From the IMG/VR virus record IMGVR_UViG_3300028025_001730, positions 1 through 31,742 of that record: a stretch of 31,742 bases of DNA; one strand, given 5' to 3'. Under the pieces are notes generated by a model that saw nothing but the letters and a program-made list of their open reading frames with translations, was not told the DNA's origin and did no database searches. A program made the translations under genes and the position numbers. How positions within the stretch are numbered: position 1 is the first letter of the stretch; each line of letters starts with the position of its first letter. This DNA comes from a virus. Of the stretch, positions 5,723 to 23,979 are shown in pieces.

Positions 5723-6211
5723 ATGTCACGCGATGAAATCCTATCTGAGTTTTGGGAATCAAAATCAGTCAATGAGGCATTTGAAAAAATGCAGCCGGTA
5801 GAACTTCAAGCGGATTTAAAAGCGGAAGTATTCCTAATCCTCTGTGAGATGGATGAAAGTAAACTTATAGGTTTATACGAACGTAACGAACTGAAGTATT
5901 ACATGGTCAGGATTATGCTTAACATGATTAAAAGTGACCGCAGCAGTTTTTTTAAGAATTACCGAAACTATGTTGAACTTTTGGAAAATGATGTAGAGGT
6001 TTTTGAAAGCAATCCGGAGGAAACTTACAACAAAATAGAGGTACATTTACAAAACCTTCATTGGTATAACCGGGAACTGTTCAAGTTATACGCTTTAGAT
6101 TTTAAAAAGAATGCGAAAGAATTAAGCCGGAAGACCGGGATCCCTTATATGTCAATTGTACGATCAATCAATAAGACTAAGGCCGAGATTAAAAAGAATT
6201 TTAAAAAATGA
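5723..6211 (+). CDS. Sigma-70-like / HTH transcription factor
   Basis: A 162-aa protein with the layout of a minimal sigma factor. A helical front (about 25-85, with YYMVRIMLNMIKSDRSSFFKNY) resembles a region-2 helix bundle. The C-terminal helix-turn-helix (about 130-158, NAKELSRKTGIPYMSIVRSINK) resembles region 4. It lies just before the cassette that leads to the packaging and structural genes, where a middle/late transcription activator would be expected. Homology is remote by eye. A terminase-small-subunit-like or other HTH role is possible. Its stop overlaps the next start by ATGA. Confidence 0.55.
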   Translation: MSRDEILSEFWESKSVNEAFEKMQPVELQADLKAEVFLILCEMDESKLIGLYERNELKYYMVRIMLNMIKSDRSSFFKNYRNYVELLENDVEVFESNPEETYNKIEVHLQNLHWYNRELFKLYALDFKKNAKELSRKTGIPYMSIVRSINKTKAEIKKNFKK

Positions 6212-9220: not shown

Positions 9221-9583
9221 ATGGCAAATTTACAAAATTTAAAGCCATGGGTAAAAGGTCAATCTGGAAACCCGAAGGGAGCGGAACGCAAGTATGTGAC
9301 TTTGTTAAAAGATCAGGGTTATCGTCTGGGTGAGATCAACGATACGATTCAGGTCATGACGGCTATGACTATCGCGGAACTGAAAGAGGTATTTGATAAT
9401 CCAAAAGCTACTATTTTAGAAAAGAGTATCGCGAACGCTTTTGTTAATGATTTAAAGAAAGGAAGCCTAAACAGCTTGGAGACCTTATTAACCAGAGTTT
9501 ACGGAAAGCCTAAAGAGCAGTTGGATATTCAGCAAGATTCAAAGATTGAGGTTGTATTTATAGAGGGTAAAACTATTTTATGA
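9221..9583 (+). CDS. terS: Terminase small subunit (DUF5681-like)
   Basis: A 120-aa protein that begins with KPWVKGQSGNPKG (8-20), the DUF5681-type motif often found in phage small terminases. A helical body and a basic stretch follow. It is immediately upstream of, and overlaps by ATGA with, the large terminase. The role is recognition of phage DNA and loading of TerL. It lacks an obvious classical helix-turn-helix, so the assignment rests on the motif and position. Confidence 0.78.
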   Translation: MANLQNLKPWVKGQSGNPKGAERKYVTLLKDQGYRLGEINDTIQVMTAMTIAELKEVFDNPKATILEKSIANAFVNDLKKGSLNSLETLLTRVYGKPKEQLDIQQDSKIEVVFIEGKTIL

Positions 9584-10731
9584 GGTTGGAACTTCCGAAG
9601 CCACATATTAACCAGGAACAGATATTAGAGTGCGAAGCTCGATTCATTGTGGTTATGTGCGGCCGGAGGTTTGGCAAGTCTGAGTTATCCCAGATTATGG
9701 GGATTAAGGAAGCAATCAAAGGCGGGCAGGTTGCATATATTACACCGACTTATAAATTAGCTAAGGTATTTTTTGAAAAACTTACTTTAGTATTACCCTT
9801 TAAAAGTAATATTTCTGATTTAAAAATCTATTGCCCGAATAACGGAAGTATTGAGTTTTATACCGGGGAGAGGCTTGATAATTTAAGAGGTCGTAAATTT
9901 CATTTAGTGATAGTGGATGAAGCGGCATTCATTCCTGATCTTGAAAGCGGATGGCAGAACAGTATTCGACCGACTTTGACAGATTATCAGGGCAAGGCGG
10001 TTTTCCTATCTACTCCCAGAGGTAAGAACTTTTTTTATTCAATGTTCATGAAGGGCGAAGAAACGGATTGGAAAAGTTTTAAATTTACCACATACGACAA
10101 TCCCTATATCAATATTAGAGAGATTGAGGATGCAAAATTGCAGCTCCCGGCAGTTGTATTTGAGCAGGAATATTTGGCGAATCCTGCCGAAAATAGTGCG
10201 AACCCATTCGGCAGTGTATTTATTAGGAGTTGCATTAAACCAATATCAGCACAACAGATAGTAAGCTATGGAATTGACTTAGCAAAGTCTGTGGATTTTA
10301 CTGTTATTATCGGACTGGATGCAAGCGGTAATGTGGCTTACTTTGATCGCTTTCAAATGGACTGGCATAACACTAAAGAGAATATAAAGAGATTGCCTCC
10401 AGCACCAATATTAGTAGATAGCACCGGAGTTGGCGATCCGATACTTGAGGACTTGATGCGCGAAGGAATAAACATTGAAGGCTTAAAGTTTACCAGTCAA
10501 TCAAAGCAGCAATTAATGGAAGGATTAGCACAAGCAATCCAGCAACGCAAAATAGGTTATCCCGAAGGCGTTATAGTGGATGAGTTAGATATTTTTGAAT
10601 ATCAATTTACTGCAAATGGAGTTAGATATTCAGCTCCATCAGGATTTCACGATGATTGCGTAGTTGCTTTAGCTTTGGCATGGCAGAATTTTAATTTTAA
10701 AAGGGGTTCTGGGAGGTACTCATTTGCTTAA
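9580..10731 (+). CDS. terL: Terminase large subunit
   Basis: A 383-aa packaging motor. The ATPase has Walker A CGRRFGKS (27-34), Walker B IVDEAAF (111-117) and the coupling motif STPRGK (144-149). The RNase H-like nuclease has Asp233 in YGIDLAK, Asp280 in ILVDSTG and the Asp pair 358-359 in FHDDCVVALA. All the expected motifs are present although the protein is shorter than many TerL proteins. It pumps DNA into the prohead through the portal and cuts genome ends. Whether it makes cos or headful ends cannot be judged here. Confidence 0.96.
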   Translation: MRLELPKPHINQEQILECEARFIVVMCGRRFGKSELSQIMGIKEAIKGGQVAYITPTYKLAKVFFEKLTLVLPFKSNISDLKIYCPNNGSIEFYTGERLDNLRGRKFHLVIVDEAAFIPDLESGWQNSIRPTLTDYQGKAVFLSTPRGKNFFYSMFMKGEETDWKSFKFTTYDNPYINIREIEDAKLQLPAVVFEQEYLANPAENSANPFGSVFIRSCIKPISAQQIVSYGIDLAKSVDFTVIIGLDASGNVAYFDRFQMDWHNTKENIKRLPPAPILVDSTGVGDPILEDLMREGINIEGLKFTSQSKQQLMEGLAQAIQQRKIGYPEGVIVDELDIFEYQFTANGVRYSAPSGFHDDCVVALALAWQNFNFKRGSGRYSFA

Positions 10732-10734
10732 ATT

Positions 10735-11409
10735 ATGAAATGGAACGAATTAACACTTTGGCAGTATCAGCAGATTATGCCAATACTACAAAATTCAGAT
10801 AAGGATTGGACAGAATTAGACAAAGAAGTCAAGCTATTGACAATTGTAACCGGATTGACCGAGCATCAAATTGATAGCTTAGGGATTCAGGATCTGCAGG
10901 AACTTAGAAAAGATTTAACCTTTCTGGATGAACCGATTGAAGGGAAGCCGGTAAATTATATTAAAACCAATGGCAGACAGTATCGGGTTAATTACGACAT
11001 AAAGAACATGCCTTTTGCCCGGTACATTGAAAGCAAAGTATTCAGCAAAGATACTGTGGGCAATCTTCATAAGATAGCTGCCTCAATGGTTATACCTCAA
11101 AAAAAGAACTGGCTGGGAAAATGGAAAGATGACAAGTATGATGCGAGTAAACATGAGGAGTATTCGGCAGATATGCAGGAAGCAAATTTTATTAGCGTAT
11201 ATCACTCGCTGGTTTTTTTTTATCAAGTTTACAGAAACTGGATCGAAGTTTCGCGGGATTATATGAGGGCGGAGATGATGAAGGCGGGGATGAGCGAGGA
11301 GCAAGCGGATTCGGCGGTTTTGCTTTTATGCGAATCTACGGATGGCATTATACCGTCAAACTTATTGCCGACCACGAAAATATTAGAAATTCGGAAGCAT
11401 TTGAAATGA
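10735..11409 (+). CDS. Tail assembly chaperone, zero-frame product (gpG-like)
   Basis: A 224-aa protein in the position and style of a siphovirus tail assembly chaperone, which coats the tape measure during tail assembly. Supporting patterns are LWQYQQIMPIL and WTELDKEVKLLTIVTGL at the start, VNYIKTNGRQYRVNYD in the middle, and GNLHKIAASMVIP before a DKYDASKHEEYSADM segment. I recognise this layout from Bacteroidota phages, though the tape measure here lies four genes later. The run of nine T at 11213-11221 gives an in-register T-TTT-TTT slippery heptamer (11214-11220). The -1 frame is then open to 11492, as expected for a G/GT chaperone pair. Confidence 0.65.
   Translation: MKWNELTLWQYQQIMPILQNSDKDWTELDKEVKLLTIVTGLTEHQIDSLGIQDLQELRKDLTFLDEPIEGKPVNYIKTNGRQYRVNYDIKNMPFARYIESKVFSKDTVGNLHKIAASMVIPQKKNWLGKWKDDKYDASKHEEYSADMQEANFISVYHSLVFFYQVYRNWIEVSRDYMRAEMMKAGMSEEQADSAVLLLCESTDGIIPSNLLPTTKILEIRKHLK
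11214..11252 (+). promoter_or_regulatory. Candidate programmed -1 frameshift site with hairpin
   Basis: In the zero frame the codons are GTT TTT TTT TAT (residues 160-163), which gives the slippery heptamer T-TTT-TTT. GAAACT (11234-11239) pairs with AGTTTC (11247-11252) around a 7-nt loop and lies 13 nt downstream, a possible stimulator. The -1 frame from here to the TAG at 11490 has no stop codon. Confidence 0.6.
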
Positions 11410-11492
11410 AAACTATTGAAGCCTTAAACGTGATGGCTTACATGAAATCAAAAAATGCGTATGATTATGAACAAAGCAAGCGGCTCAGATAG
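11328..11492 (+). CDS. Tail assembly chaperone, -1 frame extension (gpT-like)
   Basis: This frame is open from the slippery site at 11214 to the TAG at 11490. Its last 54 codons, counted from an ATG at 11328, read like real protein (MRIYGWHYTVKLIADHENIR, then AFEMKTIEALNVMAYMKSKN). In lambda-like phages the T part is made only as a G-T fusion through a -1 slip, and I infer the same here. A fusion would join residues 1-162 of the upstream frame to about 91 residues of this one. Independent starts at 11328 or at 11406 (28 aa, ATGA overlap) are alternatives. The short stretch just after the slip is Gly/Asp-rich and less convincing. Confidence 0.55.
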   Translation: MRIYGWHYTVKLIADHENIRNSEAFEMKTIEALNVMAYMKSKNAYDYEQSKRLR

Positions 11493-11539: not shown

Positions 11540-12262
11540 ATGAGTGAATTTAAAGAACAAGCGAAACTATTAAGGGATGGTTTTTTAGCAAGTATTGGAG
11601 AAAAGTTTGATCTGATTGACCCAACTGAATACCCAGTTGCTGAGCAGATCCTCATGTTTTACGGAAAGCAGTTCAATGATGAAGTACAAAAGAATCTAAG
11701 CAAAAGCGGTTCCATTGCTTCCGGGAAGATCGGGGATTTGGCAGTTCCAAAGGTTAGAAAGTTTGGCAATGATTACGAAATGTTACTTGGCTATGATCAG
11801 AATAATCCTGCATCAGTTTATTACAAGTTCGTAAACAAGGGAGTGCGAGGTGTTGGAGAATTAAATGCAAGACCGAAAAGAGTTGCATCGGATTCACCTT
11901 ATGCTTACAAAACTTCTTTTCCGAATAAGAAAATGACTACCTCTATTTTGCGGTGGTATAAATTAGGGAAAGCAAAAACAACATCTGAAACACAAAAAAA
12001 GAATTTAAGTAAGACGCAAAGAAAAAATAAAAAGCTAAAACAGATAGTAAATAAAGCAGATTCATTAAAGGCTTTAGCCTATGCGACTGCTTCGGCTATT
12101 AAAAGAGATGGATTAAAAACAACATCATACTTTGATAATGCAGTTAAAACGATATTTAATAAGGATTTTTTTGCAGCGATGGCAACTGCTTTTGGTGGTG
12201 ATGTTCAGCTTCAGATTAGACAAATTGGTAATAAGATAGAAAATGGCAATAACAATAAATAG
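11540..12262 (+). CDS. Probable neck/tail morphogenesis protein (HK97 gp10-like?)
   Basis: A 240-aa protein with a basic, coiled central part (about 150-180, rich in Lys/Gln/Ser) and a C-terminal GLKTTSYFDNAV motif. The general plan (helical front, VPKVRKFGNDYEMLLGY strand region, YYKFVNKGV, then a late helical segment) recalls HK97 gp10-type head-tail connector proteins. That likeness is weak. Its place among tail genes supports a virion role. It overlaps the next gene by 20 nt. Confidence 0.5.
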   Translation: MSEFKEQAKLLRDGFLASIGEKFDLIDPTEYPVAEQILMFYGKQFNDEVQKNLSKSGSIASGKIGDLAVPKVRKFGNDYEMLLGYDQNNPASVYYKFVNKGVRGVGELNARPKRVASDSPYAYKTSFPNKKMTTSILRWYKLGKAKTTSETQKKNLSKTQRKNKKLKQIVNKADSLKALAYATASAIKRDGLKTTSYFDNAVKTIFNKDFFAAMATAFGGDVQLQIRQIGNKIENGNNNK

Positions 12263-13457
12263 TCAACCGGCTACTTTCCCAAGTATGCATGATGATCTTT
12301 GGTTTGTGGCTTCCTCAAATAATGTAGGAACGACAAATTTTAAGTTCGTTTATGATATTTACATCAACGGATCGCAAGTCAGCCGCAATAAGATATTTCC
12401 TTCACCTTCTGCCGATGGGAGCTATGGGGTTTTCAATGCTTCCCCAGTTGTAAGGTCATACGTTACGAATTATTTTGAGCCTTCCGGAACGACTGTTTTA
12501 ATGGCTTCAAATGATAAGATTAAGGTAGATTATCAGATGCGCATTGGTGAGGAGGTCAGCGGTGCAGTAATTGCAAATCTTGCTTCAGGTAATTTCTCCG
12601 CTTATAATTATTATGCTCCTTTATTTGGGGATATTTTTACCGAGAATGGGGATATTCCTTTAGTTCTATCGGACTATTACGATAATTTACTCATTGAAAA
12701 TTATACAGATGATTGGCTTTCAGATCGGGATAGTTTAGAAATACCCATTGAATACGGTGATCAGTTTTTTATTACTTTTTTAAAGATCACTTCTGGGTCA
12801 TATAAATTATGGGTTCAGCCTACGAATGAAAACGGAACGGTGGGGACTGCGGTCAGCGGAGATATTACAATGACTGGGCAATTCAACTTGTTTAATTTTC
12901 AAGCTGCAGCAATCAATTCTTTTTTAGGAAGTACAGTTATCACAGCGGATACCTTTGGGTACAATGTTTACATTACATTGGGTGCGGCAGTTACCAGAAC
13001 GCTAAAATTCAAGCAGGTTTGTAATCCTAAATACCGACAGTATAATTTGCACTTCCTGAATAGATTGGGTGGTTATGATACCATGGCTTTTAGGTTAGTC
13101 AATAAACGTAGATCAGAATTTGAACGGAGTTCATACCGGAGAAACCCTTACAAGTTATCAGGCGGTCAAATGACAAATATTGATGCTTATAACAAGTACA
13201 ATGAAACTACATTTAACTTCGCTATCCAGCATACGGATTACTACATGCTCACAAGCGACTTTCTTCTTGATCAGGATTATGCTTGGCTGGCTCAGTTGGT
13301 AGCCTCTCCGATTGTCTACATGGAAGTGCAGGGTGCGTTCTTCCCGGTCACAATCAGGAACACTAATTATCAGTACAAATACAAAGTTTCGGATGGCTTA
13401 TTCAATTTTGATTTAGAAGTTGAAATTGGCAAATATTTAAATAGTCAATTCCGATGA
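12243..13457 (+). CDS. Tail protein, possible distal tail / baseplate component
   Basis: A 404-aa, beta-rich structural protein. It starts with MAITINSQPATFPSMHDDLWFV and later has YNLHFLNRLGGYDTMAFRLVNKRRSEFERSSY, a pattern that recurs in Bacteroidota phage tail proteins upstream of the large hub protein. No enzyme motif is seen. It is coupled to the next gene by a 4-nt overlap. The likely role is to connect the tail tube to the hub, inferred from position and family resemblance. Confidence 0.55.
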   Translation: MAITINSQPATFPSMHDDLWFVASSNNVGTTNFKFVYDIYINGSQVSRNKIFPSPSADGSYGVFNASPVVRSYVTNYFEPSGTTVLMASNDKIKVDYQMRIGEEVSGAVIANLASGNFSAYNYYAPLFGDIFTENGDIPLVLSDYYDNLLIENYTDDWLSDRDSLEIPIEYGDQFFITFLKITSGSYKLWVQPTNENGTVGTAVSGDITMTGQFNLFNFQAAAINSFLGSTVITADTFGYNVYITLGAAVTRTLKFKQVCNPKYRQYNLHFLNRLGGYDTMAFRLVNKRRSEFERSSYRRNPYKLSGGQMTNIDAYNKYNETTFNFAIQHTDYYMLTSDFLLDQDYAWLAQLVASPIVYMEVQGAFFPVTIRNTNYQYKYKVSDGLFNFDLEVEIGKYLNSQFR

Positions 13458-15532
13458 TAAGAACTGAAATCTACATTGAAGATCAATTAATTGATTTGCT
13501 AAAGGATATAGGAACGGATTTCACTTATTCCATTGATGACGTCAAGGATTTTGGGAGCCGTAATACTTCGTTTAGTAGAACTATTTCAATCCCTGCGACT
13601 GCAAGAAACAATCAGATTTTCGGTTTTGCTTTTGAGATTAATATGGCTCATGAGCATAATATGGATTTGCCAAATGTGAACACAAATTTTAGTGCAAGTC
13701 AAGCGGCTAAATGCGAAGTGTATATAGATCGTATTCAGATATTTAAGGGCGTGATCAGGATTCTTGAAATGGTCAGCGATAAAGGAGCGACAGAATATCA
13801 ATGTGCGGTTTTTGGAGAGCTTGGCGGATTCATTACAGAGTTAGGGAACAGAAGATTAGAGGATTTAGATTTCAGCGAATATAATCATACTTGGAACGTA
13901 ACATCAATCCAAAATAGCTGGGACACAGTTAACGGATCTGGTTACTTTTATCCGCTAATTGATTATGGGGATGTTTCAACTAATAAGGACGATTTCAGCG
14001 TATATACTTTTAGACCTGCATTATATGTAAAGGAATATATCGAAAAGATATTCGAGGGAACTACTTATTCGCTAAATTGTGATTTCTTTGATACTGCATT
14101 TTTTAAGACTTTAATAATTCCGAATAATAGCCAGGGGATAAGAGGAACGAATGACCGTTTTATTTTAGGAACAAAAACAATCTCGCAAGTATTGTTAAAT
14201 AGCAATACGCCGACTGCTCGAAGTGCGAACCTTCCATTTGATACTACCACGTTATTAAACTTTACTGAAAATGCAGGGAAAAGTATATTCACGTATACAG
14301 ATAGTACAAAAACAGTCAGAACGATTGCTTCTATAACTGGGATTTATCAAACGGATGCGGCTTCCTCAATTACTGCGACTTTGTATATTGCTGGGGTTGC
14401 GGTTCAGGCTTTCACGCAAAATACGTTTTCGGCAAATAATCCTTTCAGCTTTGGTTTTGATATTACCGGGAACATAGCAAACACGAATACAGTACGCATT
14501 GAAATAAGCGTTCCAGTAACTGCCAATACTTATATCGTAACAATATCAAGCGCGAGTATTAACCTTGCTCAGATTACATCCCAGATAGTTGATGTAGCAT
14601 ATAATGGGGTTATATCTATTAACGAGAATTTGCCAAAGGGAATATTTCAGAAAGATTTCTTTTTGTCAATCTGTAAAATGTTCAATCTGTACGTTTTTCA
14701 GGACAACTTGAACGAAAAACAGATAAATATTTCGCCCTACATTGACTTTTATTCCTCATCGGTTACTAATAGTCTGGATTGGTCGCAAAAGATTGATACC
14801 GGATCCGCGATGTCAATTAAGCCGATGTCACAATTAAACGCAAGGTACTATGCTTACAAATACACCCCAGATACGGACTATTATAATGACAACTATCTAA
14901 AAAAGTACGGGCAAAGCTATGGCGATAATTTGTATGATTCGGAGTTTGATTTCGTAAAAGACACGGCTGCAACCCAAATTATCTTTGCACCAAGTGTATT
15001 ATTTCAGCCACAAAATCACGCACATATTGATAAATATTATACAACAATTTTTAAATTGTCAAATAATAATTCGCAAGAAGATCCAATGGATAGCGTTATT
15101 CGTATTTTAATGGCTAAGAAATTAAGTATTGCACATACTTGGCATATTAAAAGCGATGAAACAGGTGGCGGTTCTAATTTAGCAAATTTAAACGTTTACG
15201 GGTATGCGGGACATTTAGACGATCCTATAACACCGACTATTGATATTAATTTCGGAGTTCCAAAGGAATTGCAGTTCCCGGCAACAACTTACCCAACAAA
15301 TAATCTATTCAATACTTATCATTTGCCTTACTTGTTGGAAATTACTGACATGGAATCTAAGCTATTAACCTGCCGGGTTTATTTAACGGCAGTTGACATT
15401 TATAATTTAGATTTTAGCAAATACATTTGGATTAATGGGGTGTTGTTTAGATTAAACAAGGTCACTTCTTATGACCCGACATCATACCGGACAACACAAG
15501 TTGAATTATTAAAAGTTATAAATACAGACTGA
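13454..15532 (+). CDS. Large tail hub / tail-tip protein
   Basis: A 692-aa structural protein. The first 130 residues (IYIEDQLIDLL, then GSRNTSFSRTISIPATARN and VYIDRIQIFKGVIRILEM) resemble the N-terminal part of phage hub proteins that begin with nested beta domains. The middle contains a Thr/Ser-rich insert of about 120 residues (around 255-375), and NLPKGIFQKDFFLSICKMFNLYVFQD follows, a typical hub stretch. I infer a gp27/Tal-like tail tip beside the preceding protein. No lytic domain is evident. It overlaps the tape measure by one base. Confidence 0.6.
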   Translation: MIRTEIYIEDQLIDLLKDIGTDFTYSIDDVKDFGSRNTSFSRTISIPATARNNQIFGFAFEINMAHEHNMDLPNVNTNFSASQAAKCEVYIDRIQIFKGVIRILEMVSDKGATEYQCAVFGELGGFITELGNRRLEDLDFSEYNHTWNVTSIQNSWDTVNGSGYFYPLIDYGDVSTNKDDFSVYTFRPALYVKEYIEKIFEGTTYSLNCDFFDTAFFKTLIIPNNSQGIRGTNDRFILGTKTISQVLLNSNTPTARSANLPFDTTTLLNFTENAGKSIFTYTDSTKTVRTIASITGIYQTDAASSITATLYIAGVAVQAFTQNTFSANNPFSFGFDITGNIANTNTVRIEISVPVTANTYIVTISSASINLAQITSQIVDVAYNGVISINENLPKGIFQKDFFLSICKMFNLYVFQDNLNEKQINISPYIDFYSSSVTNSLDWSQKIDTGSAMSIKPMSQLNARYYAYKYTPDTDYYNDNYLKKYGQSYGDNLYDSEFDFVKDTAATQIIFAPSVLFQPQNHAHIDKYYTTIFKLSNNNSQEDPMDSVIRILMAKKLSIAHTWHIKSDETGGGSNLANLNVYGYAGHLDDPITPTIDINFGVPKELQFPATTYPTNNLFNTYHLPYLLEITDMESKLLTCRVYLTAVDIYNLDFSKYIWINGVLFRLNKVTSYDPTSYRTTQVELLKVINTD

Positions 15533-17811
15533 TGGCTGAGGAAATTATAGGTATAAAAATTACTACGGATGCGGCACAAGCAACCGAGCAGGTTAAGAAG
15601 TTAGATAGTGCCTTTGATTCAACTGATCAATCTGTAAAATCTTTACGTACTCAAATGCGCGAAGCGGCTGCAGATGTTCAGGTGTTATCTGATAAGTTTG
15701 GTGCTACTTCAAAGGAAGCGATTAATGCAGCAAAGAAGGCGGCGGATTTAAAAGATAGGATTGGGGATGCTAAGGCTTTGACTGATGCTTTCAATCCTGA
15801 TGCTAAATTTAAGGCTGTGGCTTCCTCACTGGCTGGTGTTGCTGGGGGTTTTGCTGCGCTCCAGGGCGGCATGGCTTTATTCGGAAAAGAGAATAAGAAC
15901 GTTGAAGCTGCATTATTGAAAGTAAATGCCGCGATGGCTTTATCTCAGGGACTTCAATCAGTTGGGGAGAGCGTGGATTCATTCAAGCAGTTGGGTGCAG
16001 TAATTAAAGCAAGTACGGCATTTCAGACTTTAAACAATGCGGCAACTTCAACGGCTACGACTATTCAAAAAGCCTTTGGGATTGCAACAGTTGAAACAAG
16101 TGTTGGTTTTAATGTTTTAAAGGGTGCGATTATAGCGACTGGAATCGGTGCTTTAGTTGTTGCGCTGGGTTTGGTTATTCAAAACTTTGATAAGATCAGC
16201 AAGTGGATTATGAGCAGTCCGCTTGGTGACTTAGCGCGGGGCGTTGGTAATTTAGTTGAGCAGTTTACGGACTTTATAGGGGTAACAAGTGAGGCGGAAC
16301 GGAACTTAGATAAATTATCCGCTGCCAATAAACGTGCGAATGAAGATATTGAAAACAGAATCAAAATTTTAAAGGCTCAGGGGGGATCTGAAAAAGAGAT
16401 TTATGAATTAAGTAAACAGAGAGTTGAGAATGAATTAAATGATCTAAGAAATTCAAGCAAGGTAAAAGGCGAATTATCAACAGAAGATCAGAAAAAATTC
16501 AGGGATTTAAAAGTTGAGCAATTAGTTTTAACGGCAGAATTTAACAAAAAAAGTGCTGAGGAAGATAAGAAAGCCGCGGAGGAAGCTAAGAAGAAACGTG
16601 ATGAAGCAAACAAGCAGGTTATCGCTGACAAAAAGACTGCCGATAAAATGTTGCTTGATCTGCAGAATGAAAAGGCTTTAGCTGAAATCGGTTCAGAAGA
16701 TGAAAAAGCAAAGAAACAAGCTGAAATAAATAACGATGCCCGAATTGCTGAGATTAATTCTTTAAAAGTTGATATAAAAACTAAGAATGAATTAAAAAAA
16801 GCAAGTGAGGCGACTTACCAATTAGAAATTCAGGCGATTGATGACAAAGTAAAAGAAGATCAAGCAAAGAAGGATCTGAAATTCGAGGAGGATTTACAAG
16901 CTACTTTATCGGAGGCGAGGGTTGCAAAATTCCAAGAGGGAAAGGATAAAGAAATTGCTGCTTTAGATGAAAAACTAAAGGAGGAAACTAAAAAGATTGT
17001 TCAAAATGCTGATTATACCGAAAAGCAAAAAGGGTTATTAATTTCAGCGTTAAGGGATAAATATGGGGCGGAAGTTGCTGGCATTGATGCAAAGTATGTA
17101 AAGCAGGCAGAGGACAATGAAGTAAAACGGTTAGATTCCATTATCAATAATGAAAACCTTTCTTATGCGGCTAGAAAACGAGCTGTAGATGATGCTTTGG
17201 CTTTAAATAAAAAGCTTTATAAAGAGGGTAAAATTGACAGTATAGCGTATTCAAAAACTGAAAAAGAATTAGCCGATGGCAGAATTGAACTCAGTAAAAA
17301 GGAATCAAGTTCCAGAGCCGAAAATGCGCAGAAAATTAGTTCTACATTAAAGAACGTAGCGAAGGCAATCGGAGAGCATACAGTGGCAGGTAAGGCAGCC
17401 GCGATTGCAGCGACTACAATAGATACTTATATGTCAGCAACTGCGGCGTTCAAATCTCTGGCAGGTATTCCGGTTGTAGGTCCTGTGCTTGGAGGTATTG
17501 CGGCAGCAGCAGCAGTTGTGGCAGGGTTAAAAAATGTTAAGTCTATTTTGGCTGTAAAAACTCCTGCAATTCCTGCGGGATCGTCTGAGCCGGGATTTGT
17601 TGATATTCCTTCCCCTGGTGGATCTTTAGGAGGTGGAGGTGCGATGCCTACGATTAACCAAATCACTACACCTGATTTAGGTGGCGGAGATTCAGGCGGT
17701 CAGGTTCGTGCTTCAGGAGATACGGTAATAAGAGCCTACGTAGTGGAAAGCGATATAACGGACAGTCAAAGCAGGATGCAAGAGATTGAAAACAGAGCAA
17801 GGTTTGATTAA
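15532..17811 (+). CDS. Tape measure protein
   Basis: A 759-aa tail-length ruler. It starts with the usual IGIKITTDAAQATEQVKKLD heptad region. It has a hydrophobic stretch at about 190-225 (IIATGIGALVVALGLVI), a long Lys/Glu/Ala coiled coil at about 260-620 and a second apolar segment at about 640-690 (VAGKAAAIAATTI, VVGPVLGGIAAAAAVVAGL). A Gly-rich C-terminus follows. At the common rule of about 0.15 nm per residue the tail would be near 115 nm. It ends the tail module and precedes the head genes. Confidence 0.9.
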   Translation: MAEEIIGIKITTDAAQATEQVKKLDSAFDSTDQSVKSLRTQMREAAADVQVLSDKFGATSKEAINAAKKAADLKDRIGDAKALTDAFNPDAKFKAVASSLAGVAGGFAALQGGMALFGKENKNVEAALLKVNAAMALSQGLQSVGESVDSFKQLGAVIKASTAFQTLNNAATSTATTIQKAFGIATVETSVGFNVLKGAIIATGIGALVVALGLVIQNFDKISKWIMSSPLGDLARGVGNLVEQFTDFIGVTSEAERNLDKLSAANKRANEDIENRIKILKAQGGSEKEIYELSKQRVENELNDLRNSSKVKGELSTEDQKKFRDLKVEQLVLTAEFNKKSAEEDKKAAEEAKKKRDEANKQVIADKKTADKMLLDLQNEKALAEIGSEDEKAKKQAEINNDARIAEINSLKVDIKTKNELKKASEATYQLEIQAIDDKVKEDQAKKDLKFEEDLQATLSEARVAKFQEGKDKEIAALDEKLKEETKKIVQNADYTEKQKGLLISALRDKYGAEVAGIDAKYVKQAEDNEVKRLDSIINNENLSYAARKRAVDDALALNKKLYKEGKIDSIAYSKTEKELADGRIELSKKESSSRAENAQKISSTLKNVAKAIGEHTVAGKAAAIAATTIDTYMSATAAFKSLAGIPVVGPVLGGIAAAAAVVAGLKNVKSILAVKTPAIPAGSSEPGFVDIPSPGGSLGGGGAMPTINQITTPDLGGGDSGGQVRASGDTVIRAYVVESDITDSQSRMQEIENRARFD

Positions 17812-23591: not shown

Positions 23592-23979
23592 TTTTGTCTA
23601 TTTTGGTGATGTATGGGAACGGTTAAGCAATTCTGAGGTTACTTATCCAGCTATGTTTTTTACTTTGACTGGGGCAACCGTAGGAGCTAAGGAGATCGCT
23701 TATTCCTTTAGCTTTTACTTTATGGATCGGATGCTAATGGAAGAAACAAATGAAACGGAAGTTTTATCAGACATGACGCAAGTAGCCGGGGATATTGTTG
23801 CTCAGTTGAGATACCCAGAGGATTATTCAATCGTGACCTGGACGCCTTCAACAAGTATGCCTTTAAGTTTTTTTACTGAAAGTGATCCCGATTTATTAGC
23901 CGGTGTAAAGTTAGATTCTACCTTAACTGTGCCGTTCTTAAATGATAGATGTCAAGTACCCTCTAATTATACTTTTTAA
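23530..23979 (+). CDS. Neck or tail-terminator-like protein
   Basis: A 149-aa protein. INFVYFGDVWERLSNSEVTYPAMFF, then IAYSFSFYFMDRM, TQVAGDIVAQLRYP and DPDLLAGVKLDSTLTVPFLNDRC follow the plan of small phage tail-terminator or completion proteins (helix, sheet, late YP and strand). It stands between adaptor and tail fibre. The assignment rests on position and shape. Its stop overlaps the fibre gene by TAATG. Confidence 0.5.
   Translation: MTLNQIVKELTKIGNDHEQINFVYFGDVWERLSNSEVTYPAMFFTLTGATVGAKEIAYSFSFYFMDRMLMEETNETEVLSDMTQVAGDIVAQLRYPEDYSIVTWTPSTSMPLSFFTESDPDLLAGVKLDSTLTVPFLNDRCQVPSNYTF

Follow-up and report, generated by a model that had tools for sequence, protein, structure and literature searches.

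In the window, i.e., the whole 31,742-nt stretch of viral DNA that was analyzed (IMG/VR record IMGVR_UViG_3300028025_001730, positions 1 to 31,742), the gene next to that of the terminase large subunit (TerL) very probably undergoes a programmed -1 frame transition, carried out by either the ribosome or the RNA polymerase, within a run of nine T's. The transition is conserved and under selection, and the observed arrangement of frames is far beyond chance. The gene is best regarded, with modest confidence, as a programmed two-product gene in which the ribosome is the slipping machine; its position beside tail genes and its G/G-T anatomy most likely make it a tail assembly chaperone gene.

Organization of the locus

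The two-frame gene directly follows TerL and is separated by three unassigned ORFs from the gene for the tail length tape measure protein (Table 1), on which G/GT-type chaperones usually act. The tail tube may be encoded by one of these three ORFs (11540-15532). Elsewhere in the window, the ORF at 5723-6211 resembles, by eye, a small sigma factor; the annotation of ORF33 in Nonlabens phage P12024S includes a Sigma-70 region 2 domain.

Table 1 Features of the two-frame gene and its surroundings in the window
Feature	Position	Strand	Remark
TerL (terminase large subunit)	9580..10731	+	PHROG 2, E=1.3e-45; Pfam Terminase_6N
0-frame ORF, 224 codons (G-like chaperone)	10735..11409	+	from the ORF list; codons 163-224 dual-coded
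T9 homopolymer	11213..11221	+	read from the sequence; T9/T10 in both branches
Slippery heptamer T_TTT_TTT, in register	11214..11220	+	0 of 7 positions variable in 75 distinct sequences
-1 frame (T-like part), 90 codons + stop	11220..11492	+	
6-bp hairpin GAAACT/AGTTTC	11234..11252	+	present in the window; no support as a conserved structure
ORF, 240 aa, between the chaperone and tape measure genes	11540..12262	+	without family match
ORF, 404 aa	12243..13457	+	weak phrog_31822 match only
ORF, 692 aa	13454..15532	+	
Tail length tape measure protein	15532..17811	+	PHROG 3336, E=1.4e-7; PHROG 1538, E=9.8e-5

The slip site and the predicted products

Codons 160 to 163 of the 0-frame ORF read GTT TTT TTT TAT. 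An earlier reading of this DNA, made from the sequence alone, had pointed to an in-register T-TTT-TTT heptamer followed by a -1 frame open for more than 270 nt, and both are present: the heptamer lies within the T9 run, conforms in register to the X_XXY_YYZ pattern of -1 ribosomal frameshift sites and is invariant in relatives, and the -1 frame runs without a stop as far as the TAG at 11490-11492 (91 codons from 11217, 90 of them after the slip). From the slip site to the 0-frame stop there are 62 codons. When the synonymous codons were redrawn with the 0-frame amino acids kept, 0.24% of the draws left the -1 frame of this sequence open across the overlap, and GTT TTT TTT at the V-F-F residues was expected in ∼30% of single sequences.

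Most reading would end at 11409 and yield a helical protein of 224 aa, and a minority would slip back one base on the T run and then read the -1 frame as far as 11492, for a predicted fusion of 252 aa (0-frame codons 1 to 162 plus 90 -1-frame residues). The -1 part consists of a Gly/Asp-rich linker and then a conserved helical YGWHY...LNxMAYxKxKN domain. The AF2 model of the 0-frame product has a pLDDT of 82, with the tail below 50, and residues 204-224 are predicted to be disordered, which fits selection acting there mainly on the -1 frame.

Conservation in two branches of relatives

The close set comprised 60 IMG/VR loci, nearly all 74 to 95% identical, with others at 73 to 82%, and one Chitinophagaceae MAG contig. 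In these close relatives, the T9 is kept wherever the site is covered, the full-length ones have a 224-codon 0 frame, and, in the complete ones, the -1 frame is open for 90 to 92 codons and the +1 frame is closed after 7 to 15. A member only ∼34% identical (L107) was recovered when 296 genomes from the family of the Chitinophagaceae MAG were searched with a profile, and was the sole find when the search covered 395 genomes drawn across the phylum of G186; further distant relatives were added by alignment-driven scans. The patterns in the discovery scans were degenerate back-translations, open to TTC and any GTN, and none of the 23 matches to the TTC variant encoded a relative. Throughout this first branch, all 184 relatives with V-F-F at the site read GTTTTTTTTT (3 with T10), and one further locus (L173) reads CTT TTT TTT TGT.

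Stops in the -1 frame of relatives, which the sequence-only reading had named as grounds for abandoning the frameshift, were not encountered: 82 to 97 codons are open in every complete first-branch relative except L059, and the +1 frame stops within 15 codons in all relatives with the same exception. In L059, both frames break together soon after the T9, a pattern that looks like a deletion or an assembly join. A natural single-ORF fusion was found at none of the first-branch loci examined. Two contigs, IMGVR_UViG_3300002835_000289 (L011/L012) and IMGVR_UViG_3300043436_001856 (L015/L036), each contain the locus twice, in differing copies spaced by roughly one genome length (31 to 33 kb), and appear to be joined related genomes or chimeric assemblies.

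A second branch was reached through P12024S (JQ823122), which was found only by a fold search with the AF2 model; tblastn against named phages with P0001, P0002, the 404-aa ORF and the tape measure protein as queries gave no match. The gene order of P12024S matches that of the window, with TerL (ORF_37) followed by ORF_38, which carries CTT TTT TTT TAT in the same register and a -1 frame open for 81 codons. Its ORF_39 (23663-23830), annotated as a separate hypothetical protein, coincides with the 3' part of this -1 frame and probably belongs to a fusion with ORF_38. Together with 63 IMG/VR relatives, P12024S forms a branch of 64 sequences, all with T9 or T10, preceded by GTT, CTT, ATT or ATC codons; the complete members have a -1 frame of 80 to 92 codons with a [GS]W-Y motif, and 19 to 87 residues lie between the slip and the 0-frame end. 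The profiles of the two branches match with a probability of 98.6% (E=5e-16, 18% identity), and in this match the slip sites fall opposite each other. An F, L, F, W, L core is common to the aligned -1 parts, both of which have a GW-containing motif. Clustering at 80% yielded 22 lineages. Across both branches, each of the ∼250 sequences has T9 or T10, and none has T7 or T8.

Two other proteins surfaced in the fold comparisons. The predicted fold of BFVD A0A6J7WJY4 (243 aa) matches both the 0-frame part (E=1.5e-8) and the -1 part (E=1.3e-3), and this protein is perhaps a natural in-frame fusion. Flavobacterium phage 6H (R9VW65), a weaker fold match with T_TTT_TTC near the 3' end, was not counted as a member because a -1 shift at that site stops at once.

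Dual coding begins at the slip site

Alignment of the -1 frame in homologues, a check that the sequence-only reading had proposed, found this frame open and conserved, with a signature of dual coding. Synonymous diversity in the 0 frame is ∼0.37 before codon 160, falls to ∼0.1 from codon 160 on and stays low. Among 75 distinct sequences, variability is highest at 0-frame codon position 3 upstream of the slip (0.41), roughly flat within the overlap, and, once the 0-frame stop is passed, greatest at -1-frame position 3 (0.47). As judged from these substitutions, the pattern is that of two overlapping coding frames that begin at the slip.

These data bear directly on two simpler readings of the locus. 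That an open frame happens to lie above a chance T run might be entertained for a single sequence, given that the genome is T-rich and that the V-F-F codons would so often be all T after the first G, but the conservation across 22 lineages and the substitution pattern of the -1 frame already refute this explanation, which retains a negligible probability. It is also very improbable that the -1 ORF is an independent gene, translated from a start of its own with no fusion formed. There is an ATG at 11328 in the window, and the annotators of P12024S called the 3' part as its own ORF. However, an ATG precedes the conserved GW motif in just 59 of the 103 distinct sequences and a GTG in none, so that an independent start as a general mode, another outcome that the sequence-only reading took as fatal to its proposal, was rejected. 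Furthermore, the TTG early in the -1 frame is a by-product of the 0-frame AAT TGG, and the window has CTG in its place. The heptamer does not vary, and the signal of dual coding begins at the slip, ∼110 nt 5' of the ATG at 11328.

Role of the encoded protein

Identification of the product as a tail assembly chaperone is likely from synteny and anatomy, with homology adding weak support. The protein of the window matched Pfam Phage_TAC_7 (PF10109) at E=0.0057, below the cut-off, and among 31 members, weak matches to the same family were obtained for 15 (best E=0.0019, below the cut-off) and to phrog_166 (tail protein) for 9 (E=0.01). By fold, an annotated tail assembly chaperone was matched at E=0.26 and probability 1.00. 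The PDB gave no match by sequence or by fold, and hhalign against P2 gpE/Mu gp41 detected no link, a weak test with a two-sequence profile. The chaperone assignment of the sequence-only reading thus is plausible, but its Pfam match stays below the cut-off. A short product and a -1-extended fusion, as in the G/GT type, are present at the gene level as predicted proteins. The gene does not lie just upstream of the tape measure gene; in P12024S, too, genes lie between ORF_38/39 and the long tail ORFs. On the whole of this evidence, we have fair confidence that the gene works like G/GT and do not claim it as a formal member of a known chaperone family. By analogy with lambda, the tape measure protein would be coated by the short form, and recruitment of the tail tube subunit would fall to the domain that only the fusion has. 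It is improbable that this is a genuine programmed two-product gene with another role, e.g., a head or adaptor factor: the lack of any family above the cut-off and a location beside TerL, three ORFs from the tape measure gene, would be compatible with such a role, but the recurrent weak Phage_TAC_7 and PHROG 166 matches, the fold match and the G/G-T anatomy all speak for a chaperone.

Ribosome or polymerase

A 6-bp hairpin 13 nt past the heptamer, noted in the sequence-only reading, exists in the window (GAAACT 11234-11239, AGTTTC 11247-11252), but a role for it as a conserved stimulator was rejected. In 26 sequences, neither two-sided covariation nor any gain relative to shuffled partners was detected, each of the outer two pairs is broken in 4 of the 26, and folding of the downstream 60 nt in 34 sequences was no stronger than in shuffles (mean z 0.01; 1 of 34 below -2). 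A Shine-Dalgarno (SD)-like element was rejected as a general stimulator as well, being present in 1 of 34 sequences. A conserved stimulator, either a 3' structure or an SD-like element, is common but not obligatory in -1 ribosomal frameshifting, and none was found here.

The combination of an invariant homopolymer with no conserved ribosomal stimulator makes slippage of the polymerase a serious rival. In this scenario, which we consider possible but short of an even chance, RNA polymerase stutters on the T9, and a share of the mRNAs with one extra U (or minus two) yields the same fusion by normal translation. The signature described for such systems, an A/T run of at least nine that persists in homologues sharing the overlapping-ORF layout (PMC1088944), is observed here, with T9 or T10 in all. 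Runs of nine A's or T's slip in bacterial transcription (PMC1088944, PMC5009743), and the poly-A of tssM gives rise to two ratio-critical products (PMC4256274). In a set of 190 long ORFs from 37 representatives, there are 35 runs of at least nine T's, and every one sits at the slip site. Homopolymer depletion, tried as a test of polymerase slippage, is uninformative because the expected T9 runs derive almost wholly from the slip site itself. The residues flanking the slip vary (V, L or I before; Y, C or L after), with the run still at least nine; a heptamer needs seven T's and tolerates other bases, yet the run is never shorter than nine, a point against the ribosomal reading. This constancy is only suggestive of the polymerase, however, because the flanking T's may stem from the choice of hydrophobic (V/L/I) and aromatic residues. 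In addition, slippage by the polymerase would also generate truncated +1-frame products, no documented T9 slippage by a Bacteroidota polymerase was found in the literature searched, and the experimentally supported tail chaperone cases that were found are ribosomal, including lambda G/GT (PMC5009743) and P2 E/E' on T6G (PMC3931495).

We infer, in line with these precedents, that the ribosome rather than the polymerase is most likely the slipper and that the fusion is the minor product; tested phage tail assembly chaperone genes show 6 to 7% frameshifting (PMC3711429). In the ribosomal reading, two tRNA-Phe would re-pair on U_UUU_UUU with no general downstream structure. A ribosomal slip without stimulators is possible, as is the joint action of ribosomal and polymerase slippage.

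Significance and comparison with known systems

Programmed -1 transitions in tail chaperones are already well known. As far as the searchable literature goes, four things are new: this family, its invariant T9, the lack of a conserved stimulator and the length of the dual-coded overlap (62 codons). A large phage family that makes its tail-chaperone fusion through polymerase slippage on an invariant T9, and not through ribosomal frameshifting, is a tentative prospect. The findings extend the frame switch of tail chaperones to a family of phages in which it is unannotated, the halves in P12024S being listed as two hypothetical genes. The case is also unusually clean, with ∼250 sequences, ∼60 dual-coded codons and an invariant run that never has fewer than nine T's, but no conserved stimulator. 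The choice between ribosome and polymerase slippage becomes directly testable in a cultured phage, P12024S, with its marine flavobacterium host. The findings also carry a warning that the gene is at risk of being wrongly split or fused by gene callers and homopolymer "error correction".

Among the closest counterparts, ORF_38/ORF_39 of P12024S shares with the window the location directly after TerL, the in-register T run, the open -1 frame and a related motif; it differs in the ∼18% protein identity, the short 0-frame tail and the annotation as two genes. The "classic" G/GT arrangement that the sequence-only reading saw here is not supported, given the adjacency to TerL, the distance from the tape measure gene and a slip 62 codons before the stop. 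In lambda, the tape measure gene comes immediately after G/GT, whereas here three ORFs intervene, and no sequence relation between lambda G/GT and the gene of the window was found. Lambda likewise produces a short and a -1-extended protein near tail genes, with a C-terminal domain added, but its slip occurs close to the 3' end of G (PMC5009743), as opposed to the 62 0-frame codons that follow the slip here.

In P2, E/E+E' resembles the window in the in-register T-run slip (GGT TTT TTG, NC_001895), the -1 shift and an extension of tens of residues into the next gene; furthermore, PF10109, the weak Pfam match of the window, is the family of P2 gpE. Conversely, P2 slips ∼20 nt (∼7 codons) before the E stop, the hhalign probability is 0.3%, and the T run is shorter and varies among P2-like phages (T6G, T7G, T7C) (PMC3931495). 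Systems of transcriptional slippage (PMC1088944; tssM, PMC4256274) are akin to the window in run length, strict conservation of the homopolymer and two products from overlapping frames, but involve IS elements or secretion genes.
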